A stretch of DNA of 20,309 nucleotides. Origin: a virus. Every line of letters starts with the position of its first letter. The first letter of the stretch is position 1. The translations under genes and the position numbers were made by a program. Positions 5,585 to 20,309 of this stretch are shown piece after piece. The stretch spans positions 1-20,309 of IMG/VR virus record IMGVR_UViG_3300034198_026716, one strand, 5' to 3'. The notes under the pieces were generated by a model. It did not search any database and was not told where the DNA came from. It saw nothing but the letters and a program-made list of their open reading frames with translations.

Positions 5585-5835
5585 TGTTTGAACCAGTATT
5601 GATTGGCTTTTTTTAGATTTTCCTCGTTGATTGCGTAGCCGCCCATGTCGCCCAGCACGGTATCAGTACCGCAGTTTGGACAGAGGCATGTTTGATCATT
5701 ATCCGTGTAGTTTGTGATGTCTTTGGTTTCGTATATCTTGCAACAAAAGATACATCCAGCTTGGGTTGACTGCTGGACGAGTCTTTTGTTTTTAAATGCA
5801 AGGGACATGAGTTGTTGCACGGGTGTCTGATCCAT
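5581..5835 (-). CDS. Small zinc-ribbon protein
   Basis: An 84-residue protein with four to six Cys arranged as C-I-F-C-C near residues 28-32 and C-L-C-P-N-C-G near 50-56, followed by T-D-T-V-L-G-D, and an aromatic ending with Y-W-F. This matches a small zinc-binding family I recall from bacteria and phages (C-x-F-C ... T-x-L-C-P-x-C-G-x-D-[ST]-V), whose role is unknown to me. The start ATG at 5835 shares a base with the portal stop (TAATG), so it is probably translationally coupled to the portal gene. Nothing suggests a virion role beyond this coupling. Confidence 0.78.
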   Translation of the reverse strand: MDQTPVQQLMSLAFKNKRLVQQSTQAGCIFCCKIYETKDITNYTDNDQTCLCPNCGTDTVLGDMGGYAINEENLKKANQYWFKH

Positions 5836-8800: not shown

Positions 8801-9602
8801 CAAGTCTTTCAGCGACTTGTACAGTTTTAAGTCCATCTGCGTATAGTCTGCATCCTAGATTTACGGCTTGCATTTTTGGAGGTATTTTGCCTGTGCGCCA
8901 GTCGTCTACGAATTGTCTTTCGTGAATCCAGCCTTTAGTTTTGGTGTAGATTCTGGGGTATTGTGCGGTTCTCAGTCTGGTGTGATTTTGGCTAGCTTTC
9001 ACACGGTAAAAGGGCATGAGTTCATCTTCGACTTCAAGGTCGCCTGTTTCACACCAAGTGCCGTCTTTTTTTAGAACACGGTGATCTTCTGTGGCTGTGA
9101 AGGTTGATCCATCATCGAGGACGACTGTGATGGTGGGTGCACGCTTTACGAGTCGTGGAGCGTATGCCCAGCCCAAGGTGTAGTCGTTTTTCTCGAAATC
9201 ATAGCAATAAACAAGGAATCTTTCGTCGGCTCTTTTTTCTGTGAGTTCCTTGATGGTGATAAATCCGAAGGGAGTGGCAATTTTAGTGTCACCGGCAACA
9301 CAAGCTTCGTCTGCAAAGACGGTCATGGCAGCTTCGATTTCTGGAACATTACGAAGTCTTTCGTACTCTTTATAACGCATAGCACGATTTGACAGCGTAG
9401 TGGTGTCAATCATGTCATTCGTTTGGCGGTAGCTGCTGAGTCCTCCGCTTACATTCTGCGGATTATTGATATCTGCGCCGATAGCTTCTGGTTGGCTGAT
9501 GCCTGCGGAACTGAACTGACGGGGGTCTTTACGGCGAGCGAGCGGATCGGCTTCGCTGGAGTAGGAAAAAAGCTTGAAAAAATCAGACCATAACGGAGCC
9601 AT
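5835..9602 (-). CDS. 20: Portal protein, gp20-like, precursor interrupted by two inteins
   Basis: A 1255-codon reading frame. Removing two inteins (residues 101-331 and 503-914) leaves a 612-residue portal, somewhat longer than the 524 residues of T4 gp20. Extein blocks typical of T4-like portals are clear: RYKEYERLRNVPEIEAAM, NGWIWFKNLCISGDYFVE, the SQIVHFRIGDD region, and TRAPERRVFYIDVGQLPP followed by the N-Y-F-N region. The C-terminus is a Pro/Gly/Glu-rich tail of about 50 residues and then an acidic end. The portal forms the dodecameric ring through which DNA is packaged and on which the head initiates. ATG 9602 follows AAGGGA. The insertion points fall in conserved extein sequence: ADEA before Cys332, and VVYRL before Thr915. 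The gene is followed at once by the coupled zinc-ribbon gene. Confidence 0.95.
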   Translation of the reverse strand: MAPLWSDFFKLFSYSSEADPLARRKDPRQFSSAGISQPEAIGADINNPQNVSGGLSSYRQTNDMIDTTTLSNRAMRYKEYERLRNVPEIEAAMTVFADEACVAGDTKIATPFGFITIKELTEKRADERFLVYCYDFEKNDYTLGWAYAPRLVKRAPTITVVLDDGSTFTATEDHRVLKKDGTWCETGDLEVEDELMPFYRVKASQNHTRLRTAQYPRIYTKTKGWIHERQFVDDWRTGKIPPKMQAVNLGCRLYADGLKTVQVAERLGHDWRTVGEWLAREGFTTKEIKRLNRFEKERRIIGIEPGPVQDVYDLSVEKQMCFATDSVILHNCQKDENGNIIKITTENQDIKDEIDFLLMNRKMLNLNRNGWIWFKNLCISGDYFVELVINPENPKEGIYRTMPLPCETMYRIETVKGRIIEYQQSKEGPDYQAIVRGSVTDMTDTELNQTTAIRFAPSQIVHFRIGDDRKTFYPYGQSLIEPARGPAHSLRMLEDAMVVYRLCLVGDTVISLQNGTKNIRDIKVGDTVLSYDYDGKLIPTKVACHVNNGIQNVFSVKSKHIEIVGTATHPVLVNRQGVLQYVDIQDLIPKTDKLICVTRNDNVLTQMPKSPKEPWAKLSSEMRTAFRNGNYENISKLLKNCKVKDNRAKQFLYTEGKALPIDLAKNVCDIFELDHSKLIIAKKSQVYSERINLPEFVDEEFARLFGFLIGDGSISRKLCRIAFSAGDKQKVNQKYAGLLQKYFGKVSYNPDKRGKFGNYCVSSARGAEIFLELGYIPGAKNKRIPQWVFTSNLEIRKAFVKGISDADSCQRTTFKGTWFSTIELCNKELVKDIKSVWASIGLSSGKIKERQRKGIAKNRLMKSTTSHSVTISEKELPQYENVCSITPCGQEEVYDITVDNELHNFIANGTPTHNTRAPERRVFYIDVGQLPPFKAEAFMDRIKDQFRKRKVTSNSGSPGANQVEEKWMPPAQDEDYWLPIRPNSNTRIDTLPGAENLGEIDDAVYFRNKLLTALNFPKNYFNNEDPGATRITLSAQDVKFARMIERLQSHFEDGIMEIAERHLQLRGYPEDSYKDLRIKMTPPSDWRELSRAEVVNARYGNAGTLKGSQLMSDFDIMTKILKYNQDDADEMLARLKIQKLEDLKLQVLAQNPQLLGVGIPSAEGQDQELGAEAGGPNAMPEPGAEGPPPEGGPPPEAPPEGLPAPSEGPPAEKAGMAEPVSIAEPTDDDIKKYDLELQGFDIESDLEDIDFSVRS
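6861..8096 (-). mobile_element. Intein 2 in the portal, with LAGLIDADG endonuclease
   Basis: 412 residues, portal residues 503-914. Splicing block A starts at Cys1 (CLVGDTVISL). Block B has GTATHP with His67. Block F is VYDITVDNELHNF. The end is T-H-N (His411, Asn412), followed by Thr as the +1 nucleophile. Between them are two LAGLIDADG helices: FGFLIGDG with Asp209 and KGISDADS with Asp305. Both acidic residues are present, so the endonuclease looks active and the intein mobile. Residues 100-190 form a further helical domain of unclear role. All splice residues are present, so self-excision is expected. The target is the TRAPERR portal motif. Confidence 0.93.
8610..9302 (-). mobile_element. 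Intein 1 in the portal, with helix-turn-helix insert and no LAGLIDADG
   Basis: 231 residues, portal residues 101-331. Block A begins CVAGDTKIAT. Block B is TATEDH with His74. Block F is VYDLSVEKQMCFATDS. It ends L-H-N (His230, Asn231) before Cys as the +1 nucleophile. The usual endonuclease position (about residues 105-200) holds only about 95 residues. These include YPRIYTKTKGWIHERQF and a helix-turn-helix-like stretch, TVQVAERLGHDWRTVGEWL at 160-178. No LAGLIDADG pair or HNH core can be seen. It may be a mini-intein with a residual or alternative DNA-binding domain. Splicing residues are intact. Confidence 0.9.
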
Positions 9603-9626
9603 TTTTAGTTCCCTTGCATAATCACG

Positions 9627-9635
9627 CTTATTTTA
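9627..9635 (-). promoter_or_regulatory. Promoter-like TAAAATAAG box upstream of the portal gene
   Basis: On the minus strand TAAAATAAG starts 33 bases before the portal ATG, matching the spacing of the TATATAAG boxes elsewhere. It is a weaker match to the consensus. No comparable box is seen before the divergent gene at 9674. Confidence 0.35.
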
Positions 9636-9673
9636 GTTATCAAAGTAAAGGGATTTTTCTTCCAAAGGACATC

Positions 9674-10276
9674 ATGAAAAAAATAGTTTTAATTTGCAGT
9701 CATGAGTATTCAGGATCGACTGCCTTATATGAGTCGTTGAATGATCATATTAGGATTCAGGGTTTTAGAAACAAAAACAGATATGAGAGTCCCTTGAGTT
9801 TGTATTATCTAACAAAAAATCATCATAAATTAAGCAATAAATCAGCAATTTTTTTGGATGAGGTTGTACGGAATCATCAAATTAGCACCAAATCGGTTTA
9901 TGATTACTGCAAGTTAATCTTTGTTTTGAGGGAGCCAGAAGCTGTAATGGGCTATATGGTTGGCAACGAAAAAAGAAATCCATCATTTGCTTGCAGATAT
10001 TATAATTTTAGGTTACGCAGACTTTATGAGATGTCAAAAAAGGCATCGGGGTCATTGTTATTGACATATGATGATTTAGCAAGTAACCGTGGTATTGAGT
10101 TGGTTGATAAATATTTAGGACTAAAAACAAGTATCAATTTTGATCCAAATTTATTGATTCCTTTTCAGAGAACATTCAATTTAGATTTGATAACGCCCAA
10201 GGATATGGATGTTTTGAGGGACTCTTATGAGCGTTATCTTTATCTCATGACGCAGAATTTAGTGAGGGTCAATTGA
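9674..10276 (+). CDS. Sulfotransferase-like P-loop protein
   Basis: A 200-residue protein. The start at ATG 9674 follows AAAGGACATC; an upstream in-frame ATG at 9614 lacks a site. The N-terminus MKKIVLICSHEYSGSTALYE has the strand-loop-helix of a sulfotransferase phosphosulfate-binding loop (Y-S-G-S-T at 12-16). Residues 83-92 (FVLREPEAVM) correspond to the family's R-x-P 3'-phosphate block, and LLLTYDDLA at 128-136 to the usual Y-E-D-L strand. Members move sulfate from PAPS to hydroxyls or amines; the substrate here is unknown, and the protein is shorter than typical enzymes (250-300 residues). It faces away from the portal gene and overlaps the convergent M14 gene by 18 bases. A divergent P-loop kinase is the alternative. 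Confidence 0.72.
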   Translation: MKKIVLICSHEYSGSTALYESLNDHIRIQGFRNKNRYESPLSLYYLTKNHHKLSNKSAIFLDEVVRNHQISTKSVYDYCKLIFVLREPEAVMGYMVGNEKRNPSFACRYYNFRLRRLYEMSKKASGSLLLTYDDLASNRGIELVDKYLGLKTSINFDPNLLIPFQRTFNLDLITPKDMDVLRDSYERYLYLMTQNLVRVN

Positions 10277-11329
10277 TTTTAGAGTGCCATCGGAGTTGCG
10301 GTGATATTCTTTTGCAATTCCTGTGTTTTGGCTGAAGTCAATTCCATTATCTGCTGTAGTAATTTTGATATCTGGTGATTTTTCGATAAAATATGTAATT
10401 GCATCTTGGGTGCGCTTAAGTTCGTCTTTAATTTCTTGTAGACTGGGTTTGTGCTGGTGAGTACCGTATTCGATAACAGTAGCGAAGCTGCCGTTTCGAT
10501 AGAACCAGTCAACTTCAGTACCATCGATTGGTGATTTGTAAAGTTCAGCACAATGAATCATTTTGTAATTAGCCATTTTAGCCATTTTGCCAACAATCGC
10601 ATCATAATCTGATTGGTTGGGATTTTTGCCATATTGATCGCCGTAAGGAATGAGAAAAAATCTGCCGTATGTGTGGCCTGACAAAACTGCGTGAGGTTTA
10701 ATTTTCCAGTAGAATTCACGGAGTGCAGCAACGCTGGGCGTGCTTTGGTGTGTTTTGTTTTTAGGAGTGGGGAAGTCACGGTTGGGATCAACGCCATCAA
10801 CAAATCTCTGCTGGGTATAGCTGTCGGGAGAAACGACTGGAATAAAATAAATATCACGAGAATTTATGAGTGTTTTTATTTTGGGATCGGTAGAATAATT
10901 CTTGATTAAATTGCCCAAGTATCCCATAGTTACACCTGCGCTCCATGATTCGTTTCCGTGGATGCAGGCTGTAATAAGAATGACTGGTTTGGTATTTTTA
11001 TCTAATTTATTATTGACTCGAATATAAAAGAGGTCTGTGCCCTTTTTAGATTGGCCGTATATGCCAACTTCTGTGAGGTCTGGAGCTTCTTTATTCCAAG
11101 TTTTGAGTTGTTCGACGGTTTGAGGATAAGAGAGGTGTTGTGGAATGGGGTTGGAAATCTGTGGAGAGCTTGGTTCTGGAGGCGTTTGTGGTTTTGCTTC
11201 AGGAGCTATTTTTTCTGGAACCGGAGCAACTTTAGGCTCAGGGTAAGACTTTGTTTTTAGGTTAAATGTTAAGGTTAAGGCAAGAGATAAGATTCCAATC
11301 AGCATCAGTTTTGAAAAATCGTTTTTCAT
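10259..11329 (-). CDS. Membrane-anchored M14 zinc carboxypeptidase
   Basis: A 356-residue protein. ATG 11329 follows AAGGAGGGTC; a longer reading to 11356 has no site. Residues 6-23 form a hydrophobic signal anchor, followed by a Pro-rich spacer (about 29-66) and the catalytic domain. Every M14 landmark is visible: H124-G-N-E127 (zinc ligands), D-P-N-R184 (substrate carboxylate binding), S-G-H219-T-Y-G (third ligand) and V-I-E287-Y (general base). The enzyme should remove C-terminal residues from peptides, or cut peptidoglycan stem peptides as some bacterial and phage M14 enzymes do, with the domain outside the inner membrane. Only 41 bases separate it from the divergent small gene at 11371. 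A TATATAGT box (11357-11364, minus strand) lies 35 bases upstream. Confidence 0.88.
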   Translation of the reverse strand: MKNDFSKLMLIGILSLALTLTFNLKTKSYPEPKVAPVPEKIAPEAKPQTPPEPSSPQISNPIPQHLSYPQTVEQLKTWNKEAPDLTEVGIYGQSKKGTDLFYIRVNNKLDKNTKPVILITACIHGNESWSAGVTMGYLGNLIKNYSTDPKIKTLINSRDIYFIPVVSPDSYTQQRFVDGVDPNRDFPTPKNKTHQSTPSVAALREFYWKIKPHAVLSGHTYGRFFLIPYGDQYGKNPNQSDYDAIVGKMAKMANYKMIHCAELYKSPIDGTEVDWFYRNGSFATVIEYGTHQHKPSLQEIKDELKRTQDAITYFIEKSPDIKITTADNGIDFSQNTGIAKEYHRNSDGTLKSIDPH

Positions 11330-11356
11330 GACCCTCCTTGTAAAATATGTCGGCAA

Positions 11357-11364
11357 ACTATATA
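11357..11364 (-). promoter_or_regulatory. Promoter-like TATATAGT box upstream of the M14 peptidase gene
   Basis: Minus-strand TATATAGT begins 35 bases before the ATG at 11329. The same octamer occurs on the plus strand at 15023-15030. The nearly palindromic TATATA core could also serve the plus-strand gene at 11371. Confidence 0.4.
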
Positions 11365-11370
11365 TTCATT

Positions 11371-11604
11371 ATGAAGCAATCTTTCCTTGATTATCTGAAC
11401 AAAAAAGAGTGGTTTGGCGGGAGTGCCAACGATCCTTCTAATGTGGAGGACGAGGGCGATGGTGGCGATGGAGTGGCCAAGAGGATGATCACACCGGGAG
11501 CATTTCCCACATATTCGGACAATGAGCTTCCAATTACAGCAAAAAACCGCAAAAACAAGATTCGTTATATGAAAAAAGACTGTAATTGCGATAAGAAAAA
11601 ATAA
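11371..11604 (+). CDS. Small polar protein with capsid-targeting-like start
   Basis: A 77-residue protein. Two starts are possible: ATG 11347 (85 residues) and ATG 11371; neither has a good ribosome site. ATG 11371 is preferred because it gives MKQSFLDYLNKKEW, similar to the MKTFEEF and MKTFTQW starts of the small proteins near the capsid genes. The body is Gly/Asp-rich (DEGDGGDG at about 29-36) and the C-terminus is basic, ending CNCDKKK. No family recognised. It ends one base before the stem of a strong terminator, so it is probably transcribed as a single gene. A packaged internal protein is possible but the cleavage tripeptide is not evident. Confidence 0.6.
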   Translation: MKQSFLDYLNKKEWFGGSANDPSNVEDEGDGGDGVAKRMITPGAFPTYSDNELPITAKNRKNKIRYMKKDCNCDKKK

Positions 11605-11634
11605 AAACCCGCCTTTTTAGGGCGGGTTTATTTT
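11605..11634. terminator. Bidirectional terminator between convergent genes
   Basis: A 9-base-pair GC-rich stem (AAACCCGCC at 11605-11613 with GGCGGGTTT at 11621-11629) is flanked by A-rich sequence on the left and ATTTTATT on the right. It can terminate transcription from both sides and sits between the stop codons of the 77-residue gene and the cysteine peptidase gene. Confidence 0.88.
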
Positions 11635-12349
11635 ATTGTTTCAAAGGTTGCAGGATGTATTCCTTGTCGTAAACCTGTTGTTCCTGTCCACGGTCGATGA
11701 TTGGCAGGTCTTGAATTTTAGGAGCGTACTTTAAGGGGATGATGTCGTTATCAGCGTAGACTGCTGAAACCCATCCATCAAAGTGGCGGTTGAATTCTGT
11801 CATAGTCCAAGTTCTGATAGCTAGGCTTCTATCGCTGTTGTTGATATATTTGACGATGCCTTTCTTTTCATCATAGTGGACTAAGACCATAGCGTGGCCG
11901 GGGATACAGAACAGGCAACCACGGCGTTCTTTGACAACGCTTTTGATGATAAGGCTACGGTCACGGGGGTCCGTGGTTGTTTCAAATTTAACATTGAGTT
12001 GTTTCATTTTGCGTGAAAAACTGTATGTGTTTGCGTAGCTTTTGCATTCAGGATCGTTGGTAAGTCCGATCAGTTTAGGTTCTTCGGCATATCTGCCGAG
12101 GAGTTCTGTTGAGGCCCAGACGCATTGGATGCCGGTTTTGTTGAAGACCCTATCCTTCATGGGGACTGGGACCATGACATCAGCTAGATCGTCATCGACA
12201 GCGCCTTCGATGGCTGCGATGGGATTAGTGTCTGCTGCCAGATAAACATTTGGGTATTGACGATTTCTTATATCGTCAACTGATGGCGCTTGTGCCGTTG
12301 CAGGCAAAACTGTCGCAACAGCAGCAAAAAACGCAAAAAATCTTTTCAT
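11633..12349 (-). CDS. Secreted papain-like cysteine peptidase
   Basis: A 238-residue protein. ATG 12349 follows AAGGAGGTTC; the longer reading to 12391 lacks a site. Residues 1-20 are a textbook cleavable signal peptide (MKRFFAFFAAVATVLPATAQ) with A-T-A or A-Q-A before the cut. The mature part has G-I-Q75-C76-V-W, which is a Gln-Cys-x-Trp active-site start, and P-G-H152-A-M-V-L-V-H-Y-D followed by Y-I-N-N-S-D at 168-173. This Cys, His, Asn/Asp order fits clan CA (papain, C39 or transglutaminase-like). C101, C145 and C148 could form disulfides outside the cytoplasm. Substrate unknown. It lies in a row of peptidase genes and ends at a bidirectional terminator. Function is inferred from motifs only. 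Confidence 0.72.
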   Translation of the reverse strand: MKRFFAFFAAVATVLPATAQAPSVDDIRNRQYPNVYLAADTNPIAAIEGAVDDDLADVMVPVPMKDRVFNKTGIQCVWASTELLGRYAEEPKLIGLTNDPECKSYANTYSFSRKMKQLNVKFETTTDPRDRSLIIKSVVKERRGCLFCIPGHAMVLVHYDEKKGIVKYINNSDRSLAIRTWTMTEFNRHFDGWVSAVYADNDIIPLKYAPKIQDLPIIDRGQEQQVYDKEYILQPLKQ

Positions 12350-12442
12350 GAACCTCCTTGTCATGTTAAGAGTATTGTTCGATGTTGTCATAAGATTTAT
12401 CTTGATATAATACTAAAATATATATGGCTTGATTTTTGAATA

Positions 12443-12475
12443 TCTAAAAAATAAGCCCAGCGAAAAGCTGGGCTT
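12443..12475 (-). terminator. Terminator after the acidic protein gene
   Basis: A 9-base-pair stem (AAGCCCAGC at 12453-12461 with GCTGGGCTT at 12467-12475) has a 5-base loop. Read on the minus strand it is followed by ATTTTTTAG. It ends the minus-strand acidic gene and separates it from the cysteine peptidase gene. The rest of 12350-12496 is AT-rich with TATA-like sequence (for example minus-strand GATAAATC at 12394-12401) but no gene. Confidence 0.85.
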
Positions 12476-12496
12476 TGATGAAAATAATGACGAAAA

Positions 12497-12805
12497 TCAG
12501 TAATCGTCTTCTTCGTCCTGATCTTCTTCGTCTAAATCATCATCATCTTCATCATCCCAGTCCTCATCGTCTTCATCGTCTTCATCGTCTTCATCGTCTT
12601 CGTCCCAGTCTTCATCTTCGTCTTCATCTTCGTCATCTTCGTCATCTTCGTCTTCTTCTTCCCATCCGTAATCATCGTCTTCATCTTCGTCGTCTTCGTC
12701 TTCATCCCAATCATCTTTGTCATCTTCGTCCTCATCATCATAACTAGAGTTATGAAGTTGGTCGGCTTGCATGAACCAATAATCTTTTAAAATGTCTTCT
12801 GACAC
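12497..12805 (-). CDS. Extremely acidic low-complexity protein
   Basis: A 102-residue protein. The best start is GTG 12805, with AAAAGGAG 7 bases upstream; the farther ATG at 12859 has no ribosome site and would overlap the divergent lipoprotein start. The first 20 residues (MSEDILKDYWFMQADQLHNS) are ordinary. The remaining 80 or so are almost only Asp and Glu with scattered Trp, Tyr, Gly and Lys. Such polyanionic tails mimic nucleic acid or bind basic proteins or divalent metal; here the role is unknown. The repeated codons have probably expanded by slippage (four copies of a 9-base unit). It is divergent from the lipoprotein gene with 52 bases between starts, and is followed by its own terminator. 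Confidence 0.75.
   Translation of the reverse strand: MSEDILKDYWFMQADQLHNSSYDDEDEDDKDDWDEDEDDEDEDDDYGWEEEDEDDEDDEDEDEDEDWDEDDEDDEDDEDDEDWDDEDDDDLDEEDQDEEDDY
12564..12599. repeat. Four tandem copies of TCATCGTCT
   Basis: Four perfect 9-base copies lie inside the acidic gene, and degenerate copies of related 9-base units continue to about 12650. On the coding strand each unit adds Asp and Glu codons, so copy-number change keeps the frame. Confidence 0.85.
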
Positions 12806-12834
12806 GGATATTCTCCTTTTGTTGCGGGATGAAT

Positions 12835-12847
12835 AATAAATAATATA
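12835..12847 (+). promoter_or_regulatory. Promoter-like AT-rich box before the lipoprotein gene
   Basis: AATAAATAATATA lies about 20 bases before the ATG at 12858, directly ahead of the AGGAGG ribosome site. It resembles the T4 late box TATAAATA. The call is weak because the whole spacer is AT-rich. Confidence 0.35.
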
Positions 12848-12857
12848 GGAGGGTGTC

Positions 12858-13307
12858 ATGAAAAAAATAGTTTTATTTTTATATTTTTTGATTATTTCGT
12901 TAACGGGTTGTAGTTTCGCTTCTTTTATTTATGCTCCAATAGTAACTGGATATATCATGTGGAAAGATGGCGAGGCTCACAAGTATTACAACGAAGAAGT
13001 AAAAAATATGTATCGAGCCACAAAGAATTCACTAAAGGAATTGAATTATCCGATTGTGAAAGATGAAGAAACATCATATGGATATTACATAGTTGCTGGC
13101 GATGGTGATAGATTTAAAATCAGGATTAGAGAAGCCAAGCCACACATCACGGAAGTAAAAATTCGCATCAACTTTATGGGCAACAAGCCTTATGCAGAAC
13201 TTATCTACCAGCAGATTGATGCGAACACAAACACAATTAATTATGACGATGAGGGCAAGCCTGTTCGTCTGAAGAACAGGCTTCGCAAATCAGCAGACCT
13301 TCCTTGA
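12858..13307 (+). CDS. DUF3568-like lipoprotein
   Basis: A 149-residue protein with ATG 12858 after AGGAGGGTGTC. It has a lysine start, a hydrophobic core and the lipobox L-T-G-C18, so it is a type II signal peptide substrate anchored by lipid at Cys18. The mature part follows the DUF3568 pattern I recall from bacterial lipoproteins: a K/E-Y-x-x-x-V...M-Y-R-A-T...L-K-E-L-N-Y segment (about 42-64), then a G-D-R-F-K-I-R-I strand and a T-E-V-K-I-R-I strand ending with an isoleucine-rich helix. It could alter the host envelope, for example in superinfection exclusion, but that is a guess. It overlaps the convergent metallopeptidase gene by 18 bases at the 3' end. Confidence 0.75.
   Translation: MKKIVLFLYFLIISLTGCSFASFIYAPIVTGYIMWKDGEAHKYYNEEVKNMYRATKNSLKELNYPIVKDEETSYGYYIVAGDGDRFKIRIREAKPHITEVKIRINFMGNKPYAELIYQQIDANTNTINYDDEGKPVRLKNRLRKSADLP
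13257..13283. other. Hairpin near the convergent gene ends
   Basis: A perfect 10-base-pair stem (AAGCCTGTTC with GAACAGGCTT) has a 7-base loop. It lies inside the end of the lipoprotein gene and just past the metallopeptidase stop. There is no T run on either side, so it is not a canonical terminator; it may protect the 3' end of the minus-strand message. Confidence 0.4.
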
Positions 13308-14990
13308 AAGGCTGCTTCCGACTGAATATTTTGCAATTCCCCCTGTGTTTACCTTGGTGTAGCAGCCAAGTTTAGGAGGGGCTGGAACAGGAGGAGAAGC
13401 GCAGTCGCAGGGCTTGGGTTCGCATCCTTTTGCGCACTTAATGCAGCCTGAGTTGTTCTTAGGCTTCCAAGGTTTTTGGTACTCAGGCGAACCGGGAATG
13501 CAGTAATTTGGTTTGTTGCAACCACATGCTATTTGTTTGCGAACAAGTTTGTTGTTGATCACTTCAAAAAGAGCCTTGTCGTGATTTCCAACCAAATTTT
13601 TTAAATTCAGTTGATTAAGGCAGTTGAGTGCTGCTTCAACAACTTCAGCATGTGTTGTTTCTTCTACATGCTCAAGCTGTCCCTCGGGAGAAAAGAAATA
13701 GGCTGATTGTGCAGCAATTTCGACTTCAACGCTGAGAAGGGGATTGTTGTTAAGGGCCATGATTCCCGCTTCATCAACAAGCTTGATTGTTTTTGAAGAG
13801 GTGGTTCTGACAACGATCACATCTTCGTCATCGATTTCATATTCGCCTTTAATGTTGTTCAAAACATCTTCGAGAGACATGGTTCTGAGCATGGCTATTG
13901 GAGCAGTAGTAATTTTGCTATCGGCAAAACATTGAGTCATAATTTGTTGATATTTGTTGCCATTTCTTTGATCTGCGAGAAGCATTTCTTGGCAGACAGA
14001 TTTGAAAAATCTTGTTGAAGCTGCTGCTTTTGTGCAAGCTTGCAGGAAGTAGCTTGTGATTGTGTCACGGGCTGCTGTAAGGGCAACTTTAGCAGTTTGT
14101 CCTGTGGTGATGTTTTTGTTCATTATGCGTAGAAGCAGATCGTAAAACATGCTGCTGAAAACACGGCTAAAGTTGTGTGATTCGTTGATGAGAATATTGT
14201 CAGGTCCATATGTAGGAAGGGTTTCTGGCTTTACATATTTAAACTTGATGGAAAGATCACGAAGACAGTTGCTGAGTTCGCCATCTGCGCCATTGGTGAG
14301 GTTGTAGAGCCCTACACCCATGTCTATGGCCAATTTACTGATCACATTCGATTTAGTGAGATCAGAACCTGTGTCGGCAAGTGCCTTGTCGATGAGTTGT
14401 GGAAATTGCAAGCTGCTAATAAGTGCTGTGATGTCACCAAAAGCCTCATGAAAAGCCCAGACTTCTGGTGCTGCGAGGCTCCACAGGTCTGGTCTTATAA
14501 TATCGAGAAAAGCGTGGCCAAATTCGTGGGCGACAACGCTTCTGGAATCACATGCGAAAATATTTTTATTTCTAACCGTGTCTTTGAAATAAAAGAATTT
14601 GAGTGAGCTTCTGTCGTAGTATGCGTTAATGTCTTGTCCTGCTCTGGGATAGAGATTTAATGCAGAAGTTGAAGCCCATTTATTGATTGTTTTTGGGCTT
14701 TTGGACTTCATGTAGGAAAGTGCATTGTTGACAATTTGACGAAGTGCCAAAGCCTGCTGGGGTATGCTGCCCAAGGTTTGCCCACCTGTGGTTTCGCCAA
14801 TGGCACGCATAGGGAGAATGTTTGCAGTAATCGGTTCGTTGATTACATATAGAGGTTCTGATGCATCAATAAGGTATGTTTTATTTGTTGTTGCAACGGG
14901 TTTTGGAGACGCTTTGGGCGTAGTGATTGCCAATCCTTGCACTACTTGGTCTTTTTTGCTTATCAGCCAATTGATCAATCCTTTTATCAT
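13290..14990 (-). CDS. Thermolysin-like (M4/M36-type) zinc metallopeptidase with Cys-rich tail
   Basis: A 566-residue protein with ATG 14990 after AAAGGAG. The catalytic helix is H155-E-F-G-H159, and H181-E182-A-F-G-D lies 23 residues after it, giving the third zinc ligand. This HExxH plus E-A-x-x-D layout is the gluzincin arrangement of thermolysin (N-E-x-x-S-D) and of fungalysins. The preceding Y-Y-D-R-S-S-L-K-F-F-Y-F strand fits the substrate-side edge strand. No signal peptide is evident: the N-terminus (MIKGLINWLISKKDQV) is amphipathic. The last 90 residues carry many Cys (C-G-C, C-I-K-C, C-D-C) with Pro-rich linkers, a possible metal-binding or disulfide-linked adhesion tail. Substrate unknown; a virion-associated or lysis-released protease is possible. 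It is convergent with the lipoprotein gene. Confidence 0.8.
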   Translation of the reverse strand: MIKGLINWLISKKDQVVQGLAITTPKASPKPVATTNKTYLIDASEPLYVINEPITANILPMRAIGETTGGQTLGSIPQQALALRQIVNNALSYMKSKSPKTINKWASTSALNLYPRAGQDINAYYDRSSLKFFYFKDTVRNKNIFACDSRSVVAHEFGHAFLDIIRPDLWSLAAPEVWAFHEAFGDITALISSLQFPQLIDKALADTGSDLTKSNVISKLAIDMGVGLYNLTNGADGELSNCLRDLSIKFKYVKPETLPTYGPDNILINESHNFSRVFSSMFYDLLLRIMNKNITTGQTAKVALTAARDTITSYFLQACTKAAASTRFFKSVCQEMLLADQRNGNKYQQIMTQCFADSKITTAPIAMLRTMSLEDVLNNIKGEYEIDDEDVIVVRTTSSKTIKLVDEAGIMALNNNPLLSVEVEIAAQSAYFFSPEGQLEHVEETTHAEVVEAALNCLNQLNLKNLVGNHDKALFEVINNKLVRKQIACGCNKPNYCIPGSPEYQKPWKPKNNSGCIKCAKGCEPKPCDCASPPVPAPPKLGCYTKVNTGGIAKYSVGSSLSRKVC

Positions 14991-15020
14991 ATTGCTCCTT
15001 TATAAAGTGAAAGACACATA

Positions 15021-15030
15021 TGTATATAGT
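15021..15030. promoter_or_regulatory. Divergent TATA-like promoter region
   Basis: The plus strand has TATATAGT at 15023-15030, starting 24 bases before the ATG at 15047. The minus strand of the same site reads TATATACA, starting 38 bases before the ATG at 14990. A single palindromic core may serve both genes. Confidence 0.4.
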
Positions 15031-15046
15031 GGTCAGAGGTTGAATC

Positions 15047-15568
15047 ATGAATCGTGAAGACAGGCTAAGAGAGGCAAGGACTACCGAAGCCATGAAGAAG
15101 GGCTATACGGGCATGGAGGGCAAGTTTTCAGTCATAGCACGAAGATTGGGAGAACCTGTGTTGCAGCAAGGCAGTAGTTGTTATGAACAAACTTTTTTAG
15201 AAGACCCGTTTGCTGCCGAATTTATGGATGAAAGTTTGCCGACTTTAGAGGAGGACGACAACAGTTATGAGATAGGTTTGCATTTTGACGGTTTATCTCG
15301 TGGAGCGAATCTTTCCATATTTGTTCATCATTACAACAAAGAAATCGTAGTAGAATTTGAAGGGAGAAAAGTATATCGAGAAATCGCTGGAGAACTGGAA
15401 AGATTTGCTCCGGGGGTCTGGGAAGAAAGGACAGAATCATTTTACAAGTCGGCCAAGTTGATTGAGAGGCGACAGAAACCACTTGAACGCAAGAAAATGA
15501 TTGAAGAAGCAGACAAGAAAAGAAAGGAAATTTTTGATGACTTCAAATCTAAATGGGGACTTGCTTAA
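15047..15568 (+). CDS. Hypothetical protein, first of a four-gene plus-strand run
   Basis: A 173-residue protein with ATG 15047 after AGAGGTTGAATC. The N-terminus is charged (MNREDRLREARTTEAMKKG). The middle has alternating beta-like segments (Y-E-I-G-L-H-F-D-G, then LSIFVHHYNKEIVVEFEGRK). The C-terminal 45 residues form a highly charged helix rich in Lys and Glu. No signal peptide, membrane segment or known motif is seen and the family is not recognised. The next gene starts 29 bases later on the same strand, so the run at 15047-16756 is probably one transcript. Confidence 0.75.
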   Translation: MNREDRLREARTTEAMKKGYTGMEGKFSVIARRLGEPVLQQGSSCYEQTFLEDPFAAEFMDESLPTLEEDDNSYEIGLHFDGLSRGANLSIFVHHYNKEIVVEFEGRKVYREIAGELERFAPGVWEERTESFYKSAKLIERRQKPLERKKMIEEADKKRKEIFDDFKSKWGLA

Positions 15569-15597
15569 AATGTAGGAAACCATCAAAGGAGTGTGAT

Positions 15598-15975
15598 ATG
15601 GGCGACGAGATTCGAGACCTCTTATTAAGCGGTTTCATGATTTATCCTTCTGCTGGAAAGTTTATAGTAAAAAAGGAGTCAGTTCCATCGAGTCAGTATC
15701 AAATAGAACCTCATGAGTGTGATTCATATGCGGAGGCCATAGAGTTGGCTTCGCAACTATTGAAGACTCCCAGAGAAGCAACTTGGGCTGTGACTGTGCG
15801 TTACAACCGTGGCCTTGGTGTCGAATATAAGAATTTAAGTGATGTAATTGCTTCATCAAAAGAAATTGCTTTGCAAAATGCTGAAATTTTAGCGGAAAAT
15901 CATTTTAAGAAGCAAAAAGTCATGATTTCCGGTGTGAAAGTACAACCCAAAATTGACGACAAGTGGGATAAATAA
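15598..15975 (+). CDS. Hypothetical protein, second of the plus-strand run
   Basis: A 125-residue protein. ATG 15598 is preferred because of the AAAGGAG upstream; the in-frame ATG at 15553 would overlap the previous gene and lacks a site. It begins MGDEIRDLLLSGFMIYP. The middle has two amphipathic helices (SYAEAIELASQLL and the SSKEIALQNAEILAENHF region) and a beta-like T-W-A-V-T-V-R-Y strand. No known family recognised. Cytoplasmic by appearance. The promoter-like box for the next gene overlaps its final codons. Confidence 0.72.
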   Translation: MGDEIRDLLLSGFMIYPSAGKFIVKKESVPSSQYQIEPHECDSYAEAIELASQLLKTPREATWAVTVRYNRGLGVEYKNLSDVIASSKEIALQNAEILAENHFKKQKVMISGVKVQPKIDDKWDK

Positions 15976-15983
15976 GTATAGCA
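15969..15983 (+). promoter_or_regulatory. Promoter-like TAAATAAGTATAGCA element
   Basis: It resembles the TATATAAGTATGCA elements at 1257 and 5186, including the GTAT and GCA positions, and starts 41 bases before the ATG at 16010. It overlaps the stop codon of the preceding gene, so it would be an internal promoter of the run. Confidence 0.45.
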
Positions 15984-16009
15984 CATCCTACGAGTCGAAG
16001 GGAGTAAAA

Positions 16010-16528
16010 ATGGATGACAATATGAAGGTGGAAAAGTGGACTTTGGAAGACGGCAGGAGGGCCGAGCGCAGAGTCGTTGAGGTCAAAAATGCTGATGGGC
16101 AAGGAGAAAAAATTGTTGAGTTGCATGTTGAGGACGAGCGTCCTTTGAAATTACAACAACGCATCATCGAGCGTACCAAGCCGATGTTGTATGAGCGCAA
16201 GATCGAGGTCGTTGACCCTGTGAGCGGCAATGTCGTGGAGGAAAAGATTGAAGCACTTGTTGGAGCCAAGGGCGGGGAGAGCAGCTTTGTGACCAAAGAA
16301 GAGCTCCTTGCAGTTTTGGGCTCCTTGAAGAACAAGGAGGAAGTCAAAGTTTTGGCAGCAGCTAAAACTGAAGCTAACAAAAAAGTTGTTAAAAGTTTAG
16401 GTTTAGCGGAGGAACTTGAAAAAATGACAAAACCACAAAAGGATGGTATGTCCATGATGGACAAAGTGCTTTTGGTTGTTATTGCTGCTCAAATTATTGG
16501 TTTGGGCTATATTCTCTTTTTCATGTAA
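16010..16528 (+). CDS. Hypothetical protein with C-terminal membrane segment
   Basis: A 172-residue protein. ATG 16010 follows AAGGGAGTAAAA; the longer reading to 15953 overlaps the previous gene. Residues 1-85 are charged with beta-like repeats (R-R-V-V-E-V, K-I-V-E-L-H-V, R-K-I-E-V-V), residues 95-140 are helical, and residues 152-171 form a single hydrophobic segment (KVLLVVIAAQIIGLGYILFF) with only Met after it. This is the shape of a tail-anchored protein with the bulk in the cytoplasm. No family recognised; phage membrane proteins with this layout can act in lysis or exclusion, but nothing here decides it. Confidence 0.75.
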   Translation: MDDNMKVEKWTLEDGRRAERRVVEVKNADGQGEKIVELHVEDERPLKLQQRIIERTKPMLYERKIEVVDPVSGNVVEEKIEALVGAKGGESSFVTKEELLAVLGSLKNKEEVKVLAAAKTEANKKVVKSLGLAEELEKMTKPQKDGMSMMDKVLLVVIAAQIIGLGYILFFM

Positions 16529-16543
16529 TACAAAAGGAGCGCC

Positions 16544-16756
16544 ATGCCCTCCTATGAAGCATGGAAAAAACTGATACCAAATGATTGGGCAAGTTGTGTT
16601 AAAATACACAACTTGCCTTTTTCGTTTAAATCTACAATTGTTGTTCCTGTGTATGATATGGGTTTATCAGCAGAAACTTGGAGTTATTTTGATTTTAAGC
16701 AGGCTAAAGCTCAGGCTCAAGCTCGGTGCACGGGCCTAGCAGATCATTTTCAGTAA
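16544..16756 (+). CDS. Small hypothetical protein containing an intragenic terminator
   Basis: A 70-residue protein with ATG 16544 after AAAAGGAG, 15 bases beyond the previous gene. The sequence (MPSYEAWKKLIPNDWASCVK..., then STIVVPVYDMGLSAETWSYF) is not recognised. Codons 15-27 lie in a perfect terminator hairpin followed by five T residues, so only a fraction of transcripts would encode the whole protein. The last 53 bases overlap the convergent structural gene. Either the gene is real with attenuated expression, or only its start is a chance match and the run ends at the terminator. Confidence 0.55.
   Translation: MPSYEAWKKLIPNDWASCVKIHNLPFSFKSTIVVPVYDMGLSAETWSYFDFKQAKAQAQARCTGLADHFQ
16588..16622 (+). 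terminator. Strong terminator inside the 70-codon reading frame
   Basis: A perfect 12-base-pair stem (GGCAAGTTGTGT at 16588-16599 with ACACAACTTGCC at 16606-16617) has a 6-base loop and is followed by TTTTT. It points along the plus strand and would end the 15047-16528 run. The minus-strand reading has no T run. Confidence 0.82.
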
Positions 16757-17729
16757 GAACATAAGGCTGCGAGAATATTGAATCGGGATTTTTGTTTGAA
16801 TTGGTGTAAGTGTAGCAAATTTTTGTACCCAACATGCCTGTTTTCGCACCTGTCTGATAGATCAATTGGTTTGTGATACGATCAGAGCCGTCAACGGTGT
16901 TGATAGTGCAGAGGAAAGCTCCGCAGCGTCCACCGAGGTGTTCATAATCTTGTTTAACATCTTCGTAGTTCAAACCGGCGTTGGCAAGAACTGTAACTTC
17001 ACTATCTGTGAAAACATCGCCGGTATTTCCAGCGATTGTGACATTGACAGCTACAGTAAAAGTATCATCATCGATTAGCGTTACGGTTTGTAATCCATCC
17101 AATGATGGAGTTGAGTTACTATTGGCAAAGTATACTGCATCTCCATTGGCAAAACCATGCCCCGGACATAATACCACAGTTGGGTCTGCTACACTATTTC
17201 CAACAATATTTTTACCGATTCTGATGAGTTGTCCGTTAGATTCAGGCGTTGCAAATCTGTTGTCGATTGTATCTTTGTCAAAGTAAGAGGGTATATCAGC
17301 ATAGCCAGCATACTTATTGAATCTGAGAACTAATTCCATACTGCTGTTTGAAACATAACTTTTCATCAAAGAAGCTGGTTTTAACTGTCGAATTCCAATT
17401 TGTTTGCCGTTGTAGAGGGATGCCGAAAAGAATTGTTGGAATACAGTATCGCTGTTTAACGCTGCAACCAGATCATCGGCTGTAATAGAAGAAATCATGC
17501 CTAAACTTACGGTAAAGCTAGACCAGTTTTTAAAATCTGGTCCAAAAGCGTAATTGAAGATTAAATCGGTGTCTACGCTCGATAGGTCAAAAGGACCAGA
17601 ATTCCAGCAGATAAAAAACTCACCGTGGTTGCGATTTTGCGGTACTTTGAAGCTGAGAGTGAAAGCTCTGGAATCACCCACGACATAGTTGCCGAGATAT
17701 TCGTTGAAAAGATTTTGATAAAATGCCAT
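16704..17729 (-). CDS. Probable virion structural protein, unknown family
   Basis: A 341-residue protein with ATG 17729 after GGAAGG. It starts MAFYQNLFNEYLGNYVVGDS and is rich in aromatic, Ser, Thr and Asn residues with predicted beta structure. The segment HGFANGDAVYFA (about 190-201), followed by L-D-G-L-Q-T-V-T-L-I-D-D-D-T-F-T-V, is a pattern I associate with phage tail, neck and fibre proteins (H-G-[FL]-x-x-G-D-x-V, then D-D-D-T-F). No signal peptide or enzyme motif is seen. It has the size of a head-completion or tail accessory protein, but no T4 counterpart is recognised. A strong terminator lies upstream and no clear promoter was found. The stop lies inside the convergent 70-codon frame. 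Confidence 0.7.
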   Translation of the reverse strand: MAFYQNLFNEYLGNYVVGDSRAFTLSFKVPQNRNHGEFFICWNSGPFDLSSVDTDLIFNYAFGPDFKNWSSFTVSLGMISSITADDLVAALNSDTVFQQFFSASLYNGKQIGIRQLKPASLMKSYVSNSSMELVLRFNKYAGYADIPSYFDKDTIDNRFATPESNGQLIRIGKNIVGNSVADPTVVLCPGHGFANGDAVYFANSNSTPSLDGLQTVTLIDDDTFTVAVNVTIAGNTGDVFTDSEVTVLANAGLNYEDVKQDYEHLGGRCGAFLCTINTVDGSDRITNQLIYQTGAKTGMLGTKICYTYTNSNKNPDSIFSQPYVLTENDLLGPCTELEPEL

Positions 17730-17752
17730 TTTTTGCCTTCCATTCTTAATGC

Positions 17753-17799
17753 AAAAAGCCTATTCACACATTTTATGTAGCGTGTGAATAGGCTTTTTT
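17753..17799. terminator. Bidirectional terminator with 17-bp stem
   Basis: AAAAAGCCTATTCACAC at 17753-17769 pairs perfectly with GTGTGAATAGGCTTTTT at 17782-17798 around a 12-base loop. T runs are present in both directions. On the minus strand it ends the unit that includes the small basic gene, the ferritin-like gene and the M28 gene; the downstream structural gene then needs its own promoter or read-through. Confidence 0.85.
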
Positions 17800-17814
17800 G
17801 TCAAATTTATTGAC

Positions 17815-18153
17815 TTAGATTCCAGTCTTGGTAAGGTCGTTATATGAGCGCCTCACAAGAGTGCTGCGGTTGGTCTTGCTTCTACGAAGAGGATTGTCGA
17901 GTCTGAGACTATGGGTTCGGGCAATCTTCTTACGGCAGTAAGTCTTTAGAGGAGCGGTGTTTTCGGTACGGACGGCGTTGCCCTCACGCAACTCATAACC
18001 CGTGAATGATTCATCGGTTTGAGCCGTGATGAGCACAGTTCTACGCACAGGATGAGTATGGGTGCCCTTGTACCAGAAACGGGCAACGGGCAAATTAGAA
18101 ACGAGCTTAGGTGTAAAGTACAAGGGGAGTGAGGTGGTGGACTTACGGTTCAT
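17815..18153 (-). CDS. Small basic protein, unknown function
   Basis: A 112-residue protein. ATG 18153 follows AAAGGATTGACT; a TTG two codons upstream is less likely. It is rich in Arg and Lys, with a beta-like core: ARFWYKGTHTHPVRRTVLI, then FTGYELREGNAVR and PLKTYCRKKIA. A conserved-looking G-Y-E-L-R-E-G turn is followed by a basic C-terminus (LRRSKTNRSTLVRR). The core has the feel of a small barrel fold, and the charge suggests nucleic-acid contact, but no family is recognised. A TAAAATAAC box (18187-18195, minus strand) starts 42 bases upstream, and the gene ends at the 17-bp terminator. Confidence 0.72.
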   Translation of the reverse strand: MNRKSTTSLPLYFTPKLVSNLPVARFWYKGTHTHPVRRTVLITAQTDESFTGYELREGNAVRTENTAPLKTYCRKKIARTHSLRLDNPLRRSKTNRSTLVRRSYNDLTKTGI

Positions 18154-18214
18154 AGTCAATCCTTTCTTATTAATTTAAAGCAACAAGTTATTTTAAGATC
18201 GTATCTGAATAAGG

Positions 18215-18649
18215 TCAAACGCCACGCAATATTTGCCGGAAGTGATCGACATCTTCCCTGCTGTGTTCAACCTGCTTTTCATAAAATATTTCAATCCAAG
18301 TGCCATCCGTGCCACCCAACTCAACAGCCTGCTCCATTCTTTTGACATAATTGTCAACAACTTCAGATTCCATCTTGAGAGCGTGCTGAATAATATCCTT
18401 GGCAGTAGCAAGGTCGGGAATTTGTTCATCACCCCAACCATTCACGATTGAACCACCTAAACCGACAATCATGTCTGAAAATTCTGTGACATGGCCCATT
18501 TCGTTTGCAGCTTCTTTGAGGAAAAGTTCTTTGTATTCATGGCAATGCAATCCCACAACCTTGCTGGCGTGATATAAGTAAAACCTCATGTGAGACCATT
18601 CACGATGGAGGTCTTCATTAATAAGTTTGAGCATAGTTTCAAGGTTCAT
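18215..18649 (-). CDS. Ferritin-like (bacterioferritin/Dps-type) four-helix protein
   Basis: A 144-residue protein with ATG 18649 after TTTGGAG. Four helices show the ferritin-like pattern. Helix A is NEDLHREWSHMRFYLYHA, with E17 in the metal-ligand position. Helix B is KEAANEMGHVTEF with E50-x-x-H53. Helix C contains M-E94-S-E96. Helix D is YEKQVEHSREDVDHF with H129. The expected E-x-x-H of helix D reads Q126-V-E-H129, so one ferroxidase ligand may be changed or shifted. Such proteins store iron or detoxify peroxide, and 144 residues is slightly short of bacterioferritin (about 158). Its start overlaps the M28 peptidase stop as ATGA, so the two are co-translated. Function is inferred from the fold pattern. 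Confidence 0.8.
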   Translation of the reverse strand: MNLETMLKLINEDLHREWSHMRFYLYHASKVVGLHCHEYKELFLKEAANEMGHVTEFSDMIVGLGGSIVNGWGDEQIPDLATAKDIIQHALKMESEVVDNYVKRMEQAVELGGTDGTWIEIFYEKQVEHSREDVDHFRQILRGV

Positions 18650-19779
18650 GGCTTATCTCCAAATTGCATGTCTTTCTGGCCGTGGTCGTGACTATAGTCC
18701 ATTTCTTTGAATGAACCGTAGTCGAATGCTGGTTTTTTGTCGGCATTGCAAACATTCCAAGCCAACTCAAAACCATATTTTGTAACTTTCTCAAGACCTT
18801 CGTAGTTAATTTTATCTGGTGTATCTTTGGGAGTGTGGTAGTAAGGGTGAAGTCCTGTGTGTAAGAAAGCTACTGGTACTTTTTTATTATAGAAAGGCGC
18901 ATGATCACTTCCACTTGCGCCTCTAAGTGTTACGGTTTTTGCAAACGCATATTTTTTTGACAACTCATTAATTGCTGACCCGATATCCGGTGAACTTTCA
19001 TTTGTTTCAAAAGCAACTGTTTTGCCTTGATTTAAATATCCAATCATATCCATGTTTAGCATGAATACATGCTTAGTGATATCTGGATTCCCTTTGGGGA
19101 AAAGAGGATTGTTGACATAATGATAACTGCCCAACAAGCCCATTTCTTCACCAGAAAAAGCCATAAATATTACAGTTCTCTTGTTTTGTCCTTCAAGATA
19201 TTTGAAGGCACGGGCAATTTCCATGAGTGCTGCTGTTCCGGTTGCGTTGTCGTCGGCACCGGGATGTATTTTACCACCTCCCCAACGGCTCATAGATGGT
19301 CCATAACCGATGTGATCCATGTGAGCACCAATAACCACAACTTCATCTTTTAGATTCTCATCACTTCCTTCGATCCAAGCATATACATTTTGTGAGAACG
19401 CATCCCCAACTTCGTTGTTAGGTCCGGGGTTAGTTCTGCGAATTGAGAATTTGTGATATTCCGTGGGCAGTCCTATTGATTCAAAATTCTTTTTGACATG
19501 TGATGCTGCCAGCTTATTGCCATTCTTACCAGACATTCTGCCTTCAAATTTGTCTGATGCCAGAAGTTCAACATTTTCTTTTAAAGGTTGTCTTTCAATT
19601 TTTTTTACAGCTTCTTCAACGGTGGCAAGTGGTGGCTTTTTCTCCTCTTGAGGCAGTTCTTTTTTGGTTTCTGGCTTTTGAATCTGCTCGACTGGCTCAT
19701 GCGTGTTAATTGGCTTGCTTAGTAAAACAACGAGAAATACTACTGCTAAAACAAGGGCGGTTATCTGTAATCTGCGCAT
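18646..19779 (-). CDS. Membrane-anchored M28 zinc aminopeptidase
   Basis: A 377-residue protein. ATG 19779 follows ACGGAAGC; the longer reading to 19848 would run through the terminase start and lacks a site. Residues 4-20 form a hydrophobic anchor after a double Arg, followed by a charged Pro/Glu/Lys spacer to about residue 52. The M28 metal site is complete: H153-M-D155, D176 in GADDN, the E211-E212 pair in FSGEEMG, D244 in NMDMIGY and H315 in YYHTPKD. It should remove N-terminal residues from peptides outside the inner membrane. A TATATAAA box (19811-19818, minus strand) starts 39 bases upstream. It is translationally coupled to the ferritin-like gene and divergent from the terminase gene. 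Confidence 0.9.
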   Translation of the reverse strand: MRRLQITALVLAVVFLVVLLSKPINTHEPVEQIQKPETKKELPQEEKKPPLATVEEAVKKIERQPLKENVELLASDKFEGRMSGKNGNKLAASHVKKNFESIGLPTEYHKFSIRRTNPGPNNEVGDAFSQNVYAWIEGSDENLKDEVVVIGAHMDHIGYGPSMSRWGGGKIHPGADDNATGTAALMEIARAFKYLEGQNKRTVIFMAFSGEEMGLLGSYHYVNNPLFPKGNPDITKHVFMLNMDMIGYLNQGKTVAFETNESSPDIGSAINELSKKYAFAKTVTLRGASGSDHAPFYNKKVPVAFLHTGLHPYYHTPKDTPDKINYEGLEKVTKYGFELAWNVCNADKKPAFDYGSFKEMDYSHDHGQKDMQFGDKP

Positions 19780-19795
19780 ATTGCTTCCGTTTTGA

Positions 19796-19818
19796 TATAT
19801 AAGATGGCTCTTTATATA
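19796..19818. promoter_or_regulatory. Overlapping divergent promoter between M28 and terminase genes
   Basis: The plus strand has TATATAAG at 19796-19803, 37 bases before the terminase GTG. The minus strand has TATATAAA at 19811-19818, 39 bases before the M28 ATG. The boxes face outward past one another within a 53-base gap, so simultaneous use of both would be mutually exclusive or competitive. Confidence 0.55.
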
Positions 19819-19832
19819 GAGTAAGGTGGACC

Positions 19833-20309
19833 GTGGATCAGCCAACATTTTTTAAAAGCGTCAAAGAATCAGCTTGGCGTGGCAATTTCAAATCGTTGAA
19901 AGAATATTACCAGTTGGGTGGAAACATGTACCCAAATACTGGTCGTTATGAATTTGATCCACGATACTATGAATTCAACAAATACGAGCTTGAAATCGAT
20001 CCAGATGAGCCGATGGATGCCGTTGAAAATTACGATGCAGCACGCAGAAAAAAGGAAATCATCAAGTGTACTGAAAGTTTTTCATATTTTTGTCATAAGT
20101 ATGTCAAGATTTTGCATCCCATGCGGGGCTTGATTCCATTTGTTTTATTTAAATATCAGAAAAAAACTATTCACGACTATGAGAGCAACAGGTTTAACAT
20201 CATTTCAAAATTCCGGCAGGGCGGTCTGACAACAGTTACCTTGTTGTGGGGTTTGTGGCGTTGCATGTTTCAGCTAGATCAGCAGATCATGTTAATCTCA
20301 AAGACCGAC
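19833..20309 (+). CDS. 17: Terminase large subunit, gp17-like (N-terminal fragment)
   Basis: Partial gene running off the right edge; 159 codons are visible from GTG 19833, which follows AAGGTGG; no in-frame ATG precedes it. The first 80 residues are a charged N-terminal region. From about residue 83 the ATPase domain begins: FCHKYVKILHPMRGLIPFVL and then the adenine-side F-K-Y-Q-K at 106-110. The P-loop K-F-R-Q-G-G-L-T-T at 126-134 is followed by the strand IMLISKTD at the window edge. This K-F-R-Q-x-G-x-[ST]-T pattern is the deviant Walker A of T4-type large terminases, in which a basic residue before the loop stands in for the usual lysine. It powers DNA packaging through the portal. It is divergent from the M28 gene, unlike T4, where 17 and 20 are on the same strand. 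Confidence 0.9.
   Translation, partial: MDQPTFFKSVKESAWRGNFKSLKEYYQLGGNMYPNTGRYEFDPRYYEFNKYELEIDPDEPMDAVENYDAARRKKEIIKCTESFSYFCHKYVKILHPMRGLIPFVLFKYQKKTIHDYESNRFNIISKFRQGGLTTVTLLWGLWRCMFQLDQQIMLISKTD

Follow-up and report, generated by a model that had tools for sequence, protein, structure and literature searches.

Exported peptidases beside the capsid genes of a large-phage clade and a C-terminal tail common to three protease classes

What use does a phage have for four peptidases, besides its prohead protease, among its head and packaging genes? The question is raised by a 20,309-base fragment from IMG/VR (positions 1-20,309 of IMGVR_UViG_3300034198_026716; this whole stretch is called the window below), in which head genes of T4-like type on the minus strand are followed by a peptidase island and, at the right edge, by the terminase. 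Phage proteases are known mostly from head maturation. Judging from the window and its relatives, we suggest, with a probability of about 0.45, that a conserved, vertically inherited set of exported phage peptidases digests envelope protein fully during virion production. The set is larger than the initial annotation of the window saw, with a trypsin-like member, rarely a caspase-like one, and a shared C-terminal tail. M14, M28, and trypsin are known families; an open-access literature search, which was not exhaustive, returned no earlier description of the peptidase set or of the tail. A phage clade, some of whose genomes exceed 500 kb, keeps a coordinated, export-ready set of peptidases next to the genes for the capsid, and a short tag occurs on what look like three unrelated protease folds; the set allows a direct test of whether large viruses digest the host envelope for food, release, or protection.

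Four peptidases between portal and terminase

Past the portal, the window encodes an M14 carboxypeptidase, a cysteine peptidase, an acidic protein, a thermolysin-like metallopeptidase (called M4-like below), a possible tail protein, a ferritin-like protein, and an M28 aminopeptidase, with small plus-strand genes interspersed (a DUF3568 lipoprotein among them). All four non-capsid peptidase genes lie on the minus strand, at the coordinates that the initial annotation had given them:

10259-11356, minus strand: M14 zinc carboxypeptidase with an N-terminal membrane anchor and a proline-rich spacer; likely real start at 11329 (MKNDFSKLM...)
11633-12391, minus strand: exported papain/C39-fold cysteine peptidase; likely start at 12364 or 12349; signal sequence MKRFFAFFAAVATVLPATAQA
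13290-14990, minus strand: thermolysin/fungalysin-fold metallopeptidase with a cysteine-rich C-terminal extension and without an export signal
18646-19848, minus strand: M28 aminopeptidase with an N-terminal membrane anchor and a spacer; likely real start at 19779 (MRRLQITALVLAVVFLVVLLSK)
2514-3170, minus strand: S77 prohead protease, separate from the four

The two exopeptidases were recognized by family. The M14 protein matched Pfam PF00246 (E=4e-27; 96 bits against a cut-off of 21.6), its nearest match in the PDB is carboxypeptidase T, and H133, E136, R184, N192, R193, H228, and E296 are invariant in 11 orthologues. Like carboxypeptidase T, it has the HxxE...H ligands, the NR pair for the substrate carboxylate, and the catalytic Glu; unlike it, the phage protein carries an N-terminal anchor. 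The M28 protein matched PF04389 (E=2.5e-45; 155 bits against 21.3), its PDB matches are leucyl aminopeptidases, and the two-metal ligands and catalytic Glu (H176, D200, E234, E235, D267, and H338) are invariant in 20 relatives. It resembles MEROPS M28 enzymes (the Vibrio/Aeromonas leucyl aminopeptidase; LapA-like) in its Pfam score, far above cut-off, and in keeping these residues, and differs from cellular M28 proteins in being membrane-anchored with a spacer and in forming its own clade; the cellular relatives found reach at most 45% identity. In the tree, phage M28 proteins form one clade with support of 100/99, consistent with a single acquisition followed by inheritance; relatives occur in several phyla, none of them above 45% identity, and the tree has no clear donor. 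Hydropathy and inspection placed an N-terminal hydrophobic segment in 100% of M14 orthologues, and in relatives both exopeptidases start with a brief charged segment, followed by a single hydrophobic helix and a spacer rich in Pro, Glu, and Lys.

Neither of the other two window proteins matched Pfam, NCBIfam, or PHROGs, and their structures were predicted with AlphaFold, using alignments of phage orthologues as input. For the cysteine peptidase, no C39 membership was found by sequence in Pfam, NCBIfam, or the PDB sequences, even with a 23-sequence profile. The core of its model has a predicted local distance difference test score (pLDDT) above 90, and significant Foldseek matches in the PDB were limited to C39/PCAT and papain-like peptidases, which supports a papain-like fold (probability 1.00, E of 5.6e-5, template modeling [TM] score by target of 0.6-0.7); a fold search of BFVD gave weak C39, lysin, and orphan matches only. 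Q89, C90, H166, and N185 are invariant in 31 of 31 orthologues, and 97% of distinct orthologues have an N-terminal hydrophobic signal. Predicted fold and Gln/Cys/His order are those of C39/PCAT and other papain-like enzymes. Unlike C39/PCAT, the phage protein has no sequence match, stands alone and is exported, has Asn as its third residue and Gln immediately before the Cys, and ends in a C-terminal tail. It thus lies outside C39 by sequence, yet by fold and motif it probably works like C39-type enzymes.

The M4-like protein (566 amino acids; model with a predicted TM score of 0.80) is a similar case. By sequence it did not join M4 or M36, one orthologue giving an M36 match below cut-off, and the only Foldseek matches below an E of 0.001 were M36 fungalysin and M4 thermolysin. 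Its HEFGH motif, comprising H155, E156, and H159, together with E182 and D186 (E182xxxD186) and H272, is invariant in 24-25 orthologues. HExxH motif, distal Glu, and fold therefore place the protein with M4/M36, and it shares with thermolysin and fungalysin the distal Glu xxx Asp, the downstream His, and the overall fold; it differs from them in lacking a Pfam match above cut-off, a signal, and a propeptide and in having the cysteine-rich C-terminal extension. Outside M4/M36 by sequence, this large metallopeptidase yet probably works like them, to judge from fold and motif. The extension ends in SRKVC; three relatives (G004, G013, and G020) have a TAA codon in frame that cuts it off or interrupts it.

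No N-terminal signal or anchor was found in any correctly started M4-like orthologue, misplaced upstream starts being discounted. The initial annotation had proposed that an endopeptidase together with an amino- and a carboxypeptidase acts outside the inner membrane. The M4-like protein, lacking an export signal, cannot count as the endopeptidase in that proposal, so that the exported endopeptidase part falls to the cysteine and trypsin-like peptidases. The M4-like protein would be a separate, nonexported (cytoplasmic or virion) endopeptidase, more widely conserved than other members of the set. Its missing signal and cysteine-rich extension, along with the encoding of the set among structural genes, might suggest virion-borne enzymes brought into the envelope at infection. 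Such a role is very improbable for the set, as signal peptides, anchors, and lipoboxes would be useless for virion assembly in the cytoplasm.

The case for the four putative peptidases is thus a family match or a predicted fold plus invariant residues. That there are four non-capsid peptidases of unrelated fold, as first annotated, was borne out by Pfam for M14 and M28 and by predicted folds for the other two, where the models gave peptidase folds rather than contradicting the annotation. The catalytic residues noted at that stage proved intact and invariant in relatives, and hydropathy and inspection of relatives support the two membrane anchors with spacers (M14 and M28) and the one signal sequence (the cysteine peptidase).

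Conservation of the block and its TATATA elements

The block lies between these two genes:

5835-9602, minus strand: portal, with two intein-like insertions
19842-20309, plus strand: 5' part of the large terminase, read by translation, with its start a little before 19842; oriented divergently from M28 and truncated by the window end

Searches seeded with the M28, cysteine, and M4-like proteins recovered relatives on contigs of up to 532,729 bp, with the same gene order and strand and roughly 40-75% identity. Dozens of IMG/VR contigs preserve the gene order and strand of the block and have the terminase past M28 (the PF03237 terminase adjoins M28 in relatives). Depending on the peptidase, 11-31 relatives were compared and the catalytic residues did not vary; such constancy, taken together with the synteny, rules out chance or misannotation. 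A direct scan with the window M14 sequence alone gave no matches, a limit of the scan patterns, as neighboring loci do carry M14. As a control for ascertainment, these relatives having been found via peptidases, the scan was repeated with the portal alone, taking the best 80 loci, a choice that favors close relatives. Twenty-two distinct loci had 10 kb or more of upstream sequence, and of these 15 carried both the cysteine and M4-like genes, 11 carried M14, and 20 carried at least one peptidase; M28 often fell outside the sampled stretch. Relatives do carry the set together between portal and terminase, the check that the initial annotation had named: order and strand are kept, and the portal-seeded scan agrees.

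The hexamer TATATA occurs at 8 sites in the window against 2.0 expected, and 7 of the 8 immediately precede the four peptidase genes (two of them at M28), the core gene, and a gene for a 636-amino-acid protein. The elements at the peptidase genes, with their presence among orthologues, and the two head genes concerned are as follows:

11359-11364: TATATA promoter-like element upstream of M14 (12 of 12 orthologues)
12419-12424: TATATA promoter-like element upstream of the cysteine peptidase gene (12 of 17)
15023-15028: TATATA promoter-like element upstream of the M4-like gene, in a divergent region (17 of 18)
19796-19818: two TATATA elements upstream of M28 (14 of 16)
246-1145, minus strand: core/scaffold-like gene
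after S77 in head-gene order, minus strand: gene for the 636-amino-acid protein

In relatives, TATATA was absent upstream of the portal (0 of 20), S77 (0 of 17), and ferritin (0 of 20) genes. The hexamer looks like a promoter element that would give each peptidase a separate transcript.

Promoter-like elements of its own, a place among head and packaging genes, and endopeptidases that are exported and held by a lipid or membrane anchor could all belong to a set that serves lysis or release, with exported peptidases breaking a proteinaceous envelope layer or an outer-membrane protein network late in infection. We regard this as unlikely: exopeptidases would hardly help to break up a lattice, neither a holin nor a spanin was identified beside the peptidase genes, and the ferritin and the DUF3568 lipoprotein in the block fit poorly.

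A C-terminal tail on unrelated proteases

The part of the set that lies outside the window came to light through the end of the cysteine peptidase:

11636-11719, minus strand: C-terminal tail, residues 225-252 of the cysteine peptidase (KIQDLPIIDRGQEQQVYDKEYILQPLKQ), also present in relatives on exported peptidases of the trypsin-like and caspase-like classes

The profile of the cysteine peptidase also matched the last 25 residues of unrelated open reading frames (ORFs) on other contigs. Those ORFs are exported trypsin-like (S1) proteins; several score above the PF13365 (Trypsin_2) cut-off of 27.6 bits (31.9, 33.7, 31.4, and 29.8), some orthologues fall just under it, and the catalytic H/D/S residues are invariant in 52 of 52. 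Alike in these respects to other trypsin-like peptidases, they differ from them in forming a phage-specific branch with the shared tail. The S1 peptidase is present in 15 of 19 related contigs examined, mostly just past the terminase and hence outside the stretch that the window covers. Cysteine and S1 profiles each recover the other's tail, the last ~27 residues, roughly IPIIDRNxPQGxYPxDYILxP, being common to both. In one genome (L056:5628-6506, contig G014), a tail-bearing cysteine peptidase and a tail-bearing trypsin-like peptidase lie ~12 kb apart. A profile of the tail alone led to a third class in a 532-kb genome, which we provisionally call caspase-like on account of GHG and QxSC motifs that resemble those of clan CD proteases and are invariant in five proteins; few relatives have such a protein, none had a Pfam match, and a PDB profile search gave chance matches only.

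With this profile, a scan of 2.9 million viral contigs yielded 26 loci, in which the distinct tail ORFs read were exported peptidases of the three classes only. Among the 19,322 ORFs of all loci collected, 70 distinct ORFs bear the tail: 45 trypsin-like, 20 cysteine, 5 caspase-like, and none other. The tail is at the C-terminus in 69 of the 70, and some orthologues scored as tail-less hold a divergent version of it. About 90% of tail-bearing ORFs have an N-terminal hydrophobic segment, the predicted export routes among the endopeptidases being a signal peptide, an anchor, or a lipobox. A host sorting signal was considered and rejected, as the tail had no match in 32 mixed bacterial and 392 planctomycete genomes, other phyla not having been searched widely.

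Known C-terminal tags include dockerins, C-terminal domains of the type IX secretion system (T9SS), and PEP-CTERM. The phage tail is like them in that exported enzymes otherwise unrelated to one another share a short element at the C-terminus; unlike them, it has only ~27 residues, no transmembrane segment, and an unrelated sequence and is so far found solely on these phage peptidases. We infer a portable, phage-specific tag on exported peptidases, for which docking, sorting, and activation are all possible roles; if it directs assembly or location, it would be a new portable targeting element. Tentatively, and with the odds somewhat against it, we also propose a tagged modular system for envelope proteolysis, in which exported endopeptidases, whose unrelated folds would number three or more, are interchangeable through one phage-specific tag and a common partner and are joined by anchored amino- and carboxypeptidases.

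Several specific endopeptidases of differing folds would also suit differing targets, such as receptors, the targets of rival phages, or envelope-bound defense proteins, whose removal could bring superinfection exclusion or counter-defense. Huge phages encode membrane and surface proteins that may alter susceptibility to other phages (Al-Shayeb et al. 2020, PMC7162821). Such surface editing seems doubtful to us, as specific cuts need no paired amino- and carboxypeptidases and the set lies in a late-gene region, while exclusion is usually early.

A possible role in envelope digestion, and the neighboring genes

In the digestion that we favor, TATATA-type promoters of its own would switch the set on. 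C39-fold cysteine and trypsin-like (rarely caspase-like) endopeptidases, exported by signal peptide, anchor, or lipobox, would cut envelope and periplasmic proteins, and their common tail would serve as a tag for docking, sorting, or activation that a single partner recognizes, making the catalytic domains exchangeable. On membrane anchors facing the periplasm, M28 from the amino end and M14 from the carboxy end would then finish the peptides to amino acids, which would feed virion production while the envelope was weakened simultaneously. Complete digestion is proposed rather than a single cleavage event because exopeptidases of both directions are present, and it is preferred over pure lysis or exclusion because these would be anchored where peptides arise and amino acids enter.

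Several observations weigh against digestion by such a set. Several genomes lack M14 while keeping other peptidases, some lack M28, and these absences help to hold the probability at the value given above. Only one relative with a name was found: LR756511.1, an uncultured phage of 595 kb, which has the M4-like gene but no exported peptidases. The substrate of M14 could instead be cell-wall peptides, which it would trim. Within one genome, the tails of cysteine and S1 peptidases co-vary weakly (p about 0.02, with tails imprecisely cut). The TATATA site is a palindrome that divergent genes partly share, and a T4-type late promoter, TATAAATA, was rejected as not enriched.

The patchy losses of M14 and M28, and an M4-like gene that is not exported and occurs alone in LR756511.1, might mean that the peptidases are independent passengers and mere neighbors, M14 acting on peptidoglycan peptides, the M4-like protein in virion assembly, and M28 in signal removal. 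We give this little credence in view of the conserved linkage, the TATATA element in common, and the one tail on three peptidase classes.

Three further genes lie within the block:

12497-12859, minus strand: acidic ORF of 120 amino acids, extremely rich in Asp and Glu, between the cysteine and M4-like genes
12858-13307, plus strand: DUF3568 lipoprotein (Pfam PF12092, 2.6e-12), on the opposite strand and conserved in the block (13 of 22 portal-seeded loci)
18215-18649, minus strand: ferritin-like protein (Pfam PF00210, 2.6e-13), directly downstream of M28

The acidic ORF has likewise acidic counterparts at the equivalent place in relatives (e.g., L014 17811-18173). DUF3568 was found in only two Planctomycetota among 27 bacterial genomes searched, a weak hint of the host. 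The ferritin-like gene, which probably encodes an iron-binding protein of the phage, follows M28 in nearly all relatives, and its E17, E50, H53, and E94 are invariant in 22. In the 532-kb genome, a SIR2-family protein (L060:16257-17000) lies between the cysteine peptidase and M14, and near a distant cysteine peptidase on another phage contig are a PEP-CTERM-like exported protein (L064:5395-6198) and CsrA (6789-7040; 6.8e-23), a possible further host hint.

Elsewhere in the window, a 299-amino-acid ORF (1297-2196, plus strand), unique to the window among the relatives checked and without a significant family match, resembles a free-standing homing endonuclease. A conserved 220-amino-acid protein (9614-10276, plus strand), divergent from the portal, looks sulfotransferase-like by eye and has no family match. 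Of the two intein-like insertions in the T4-type portal, one spans approximately residues 101-343 and the other, which has LAGLIDADG/Hom_end matches, approximately 497-914.

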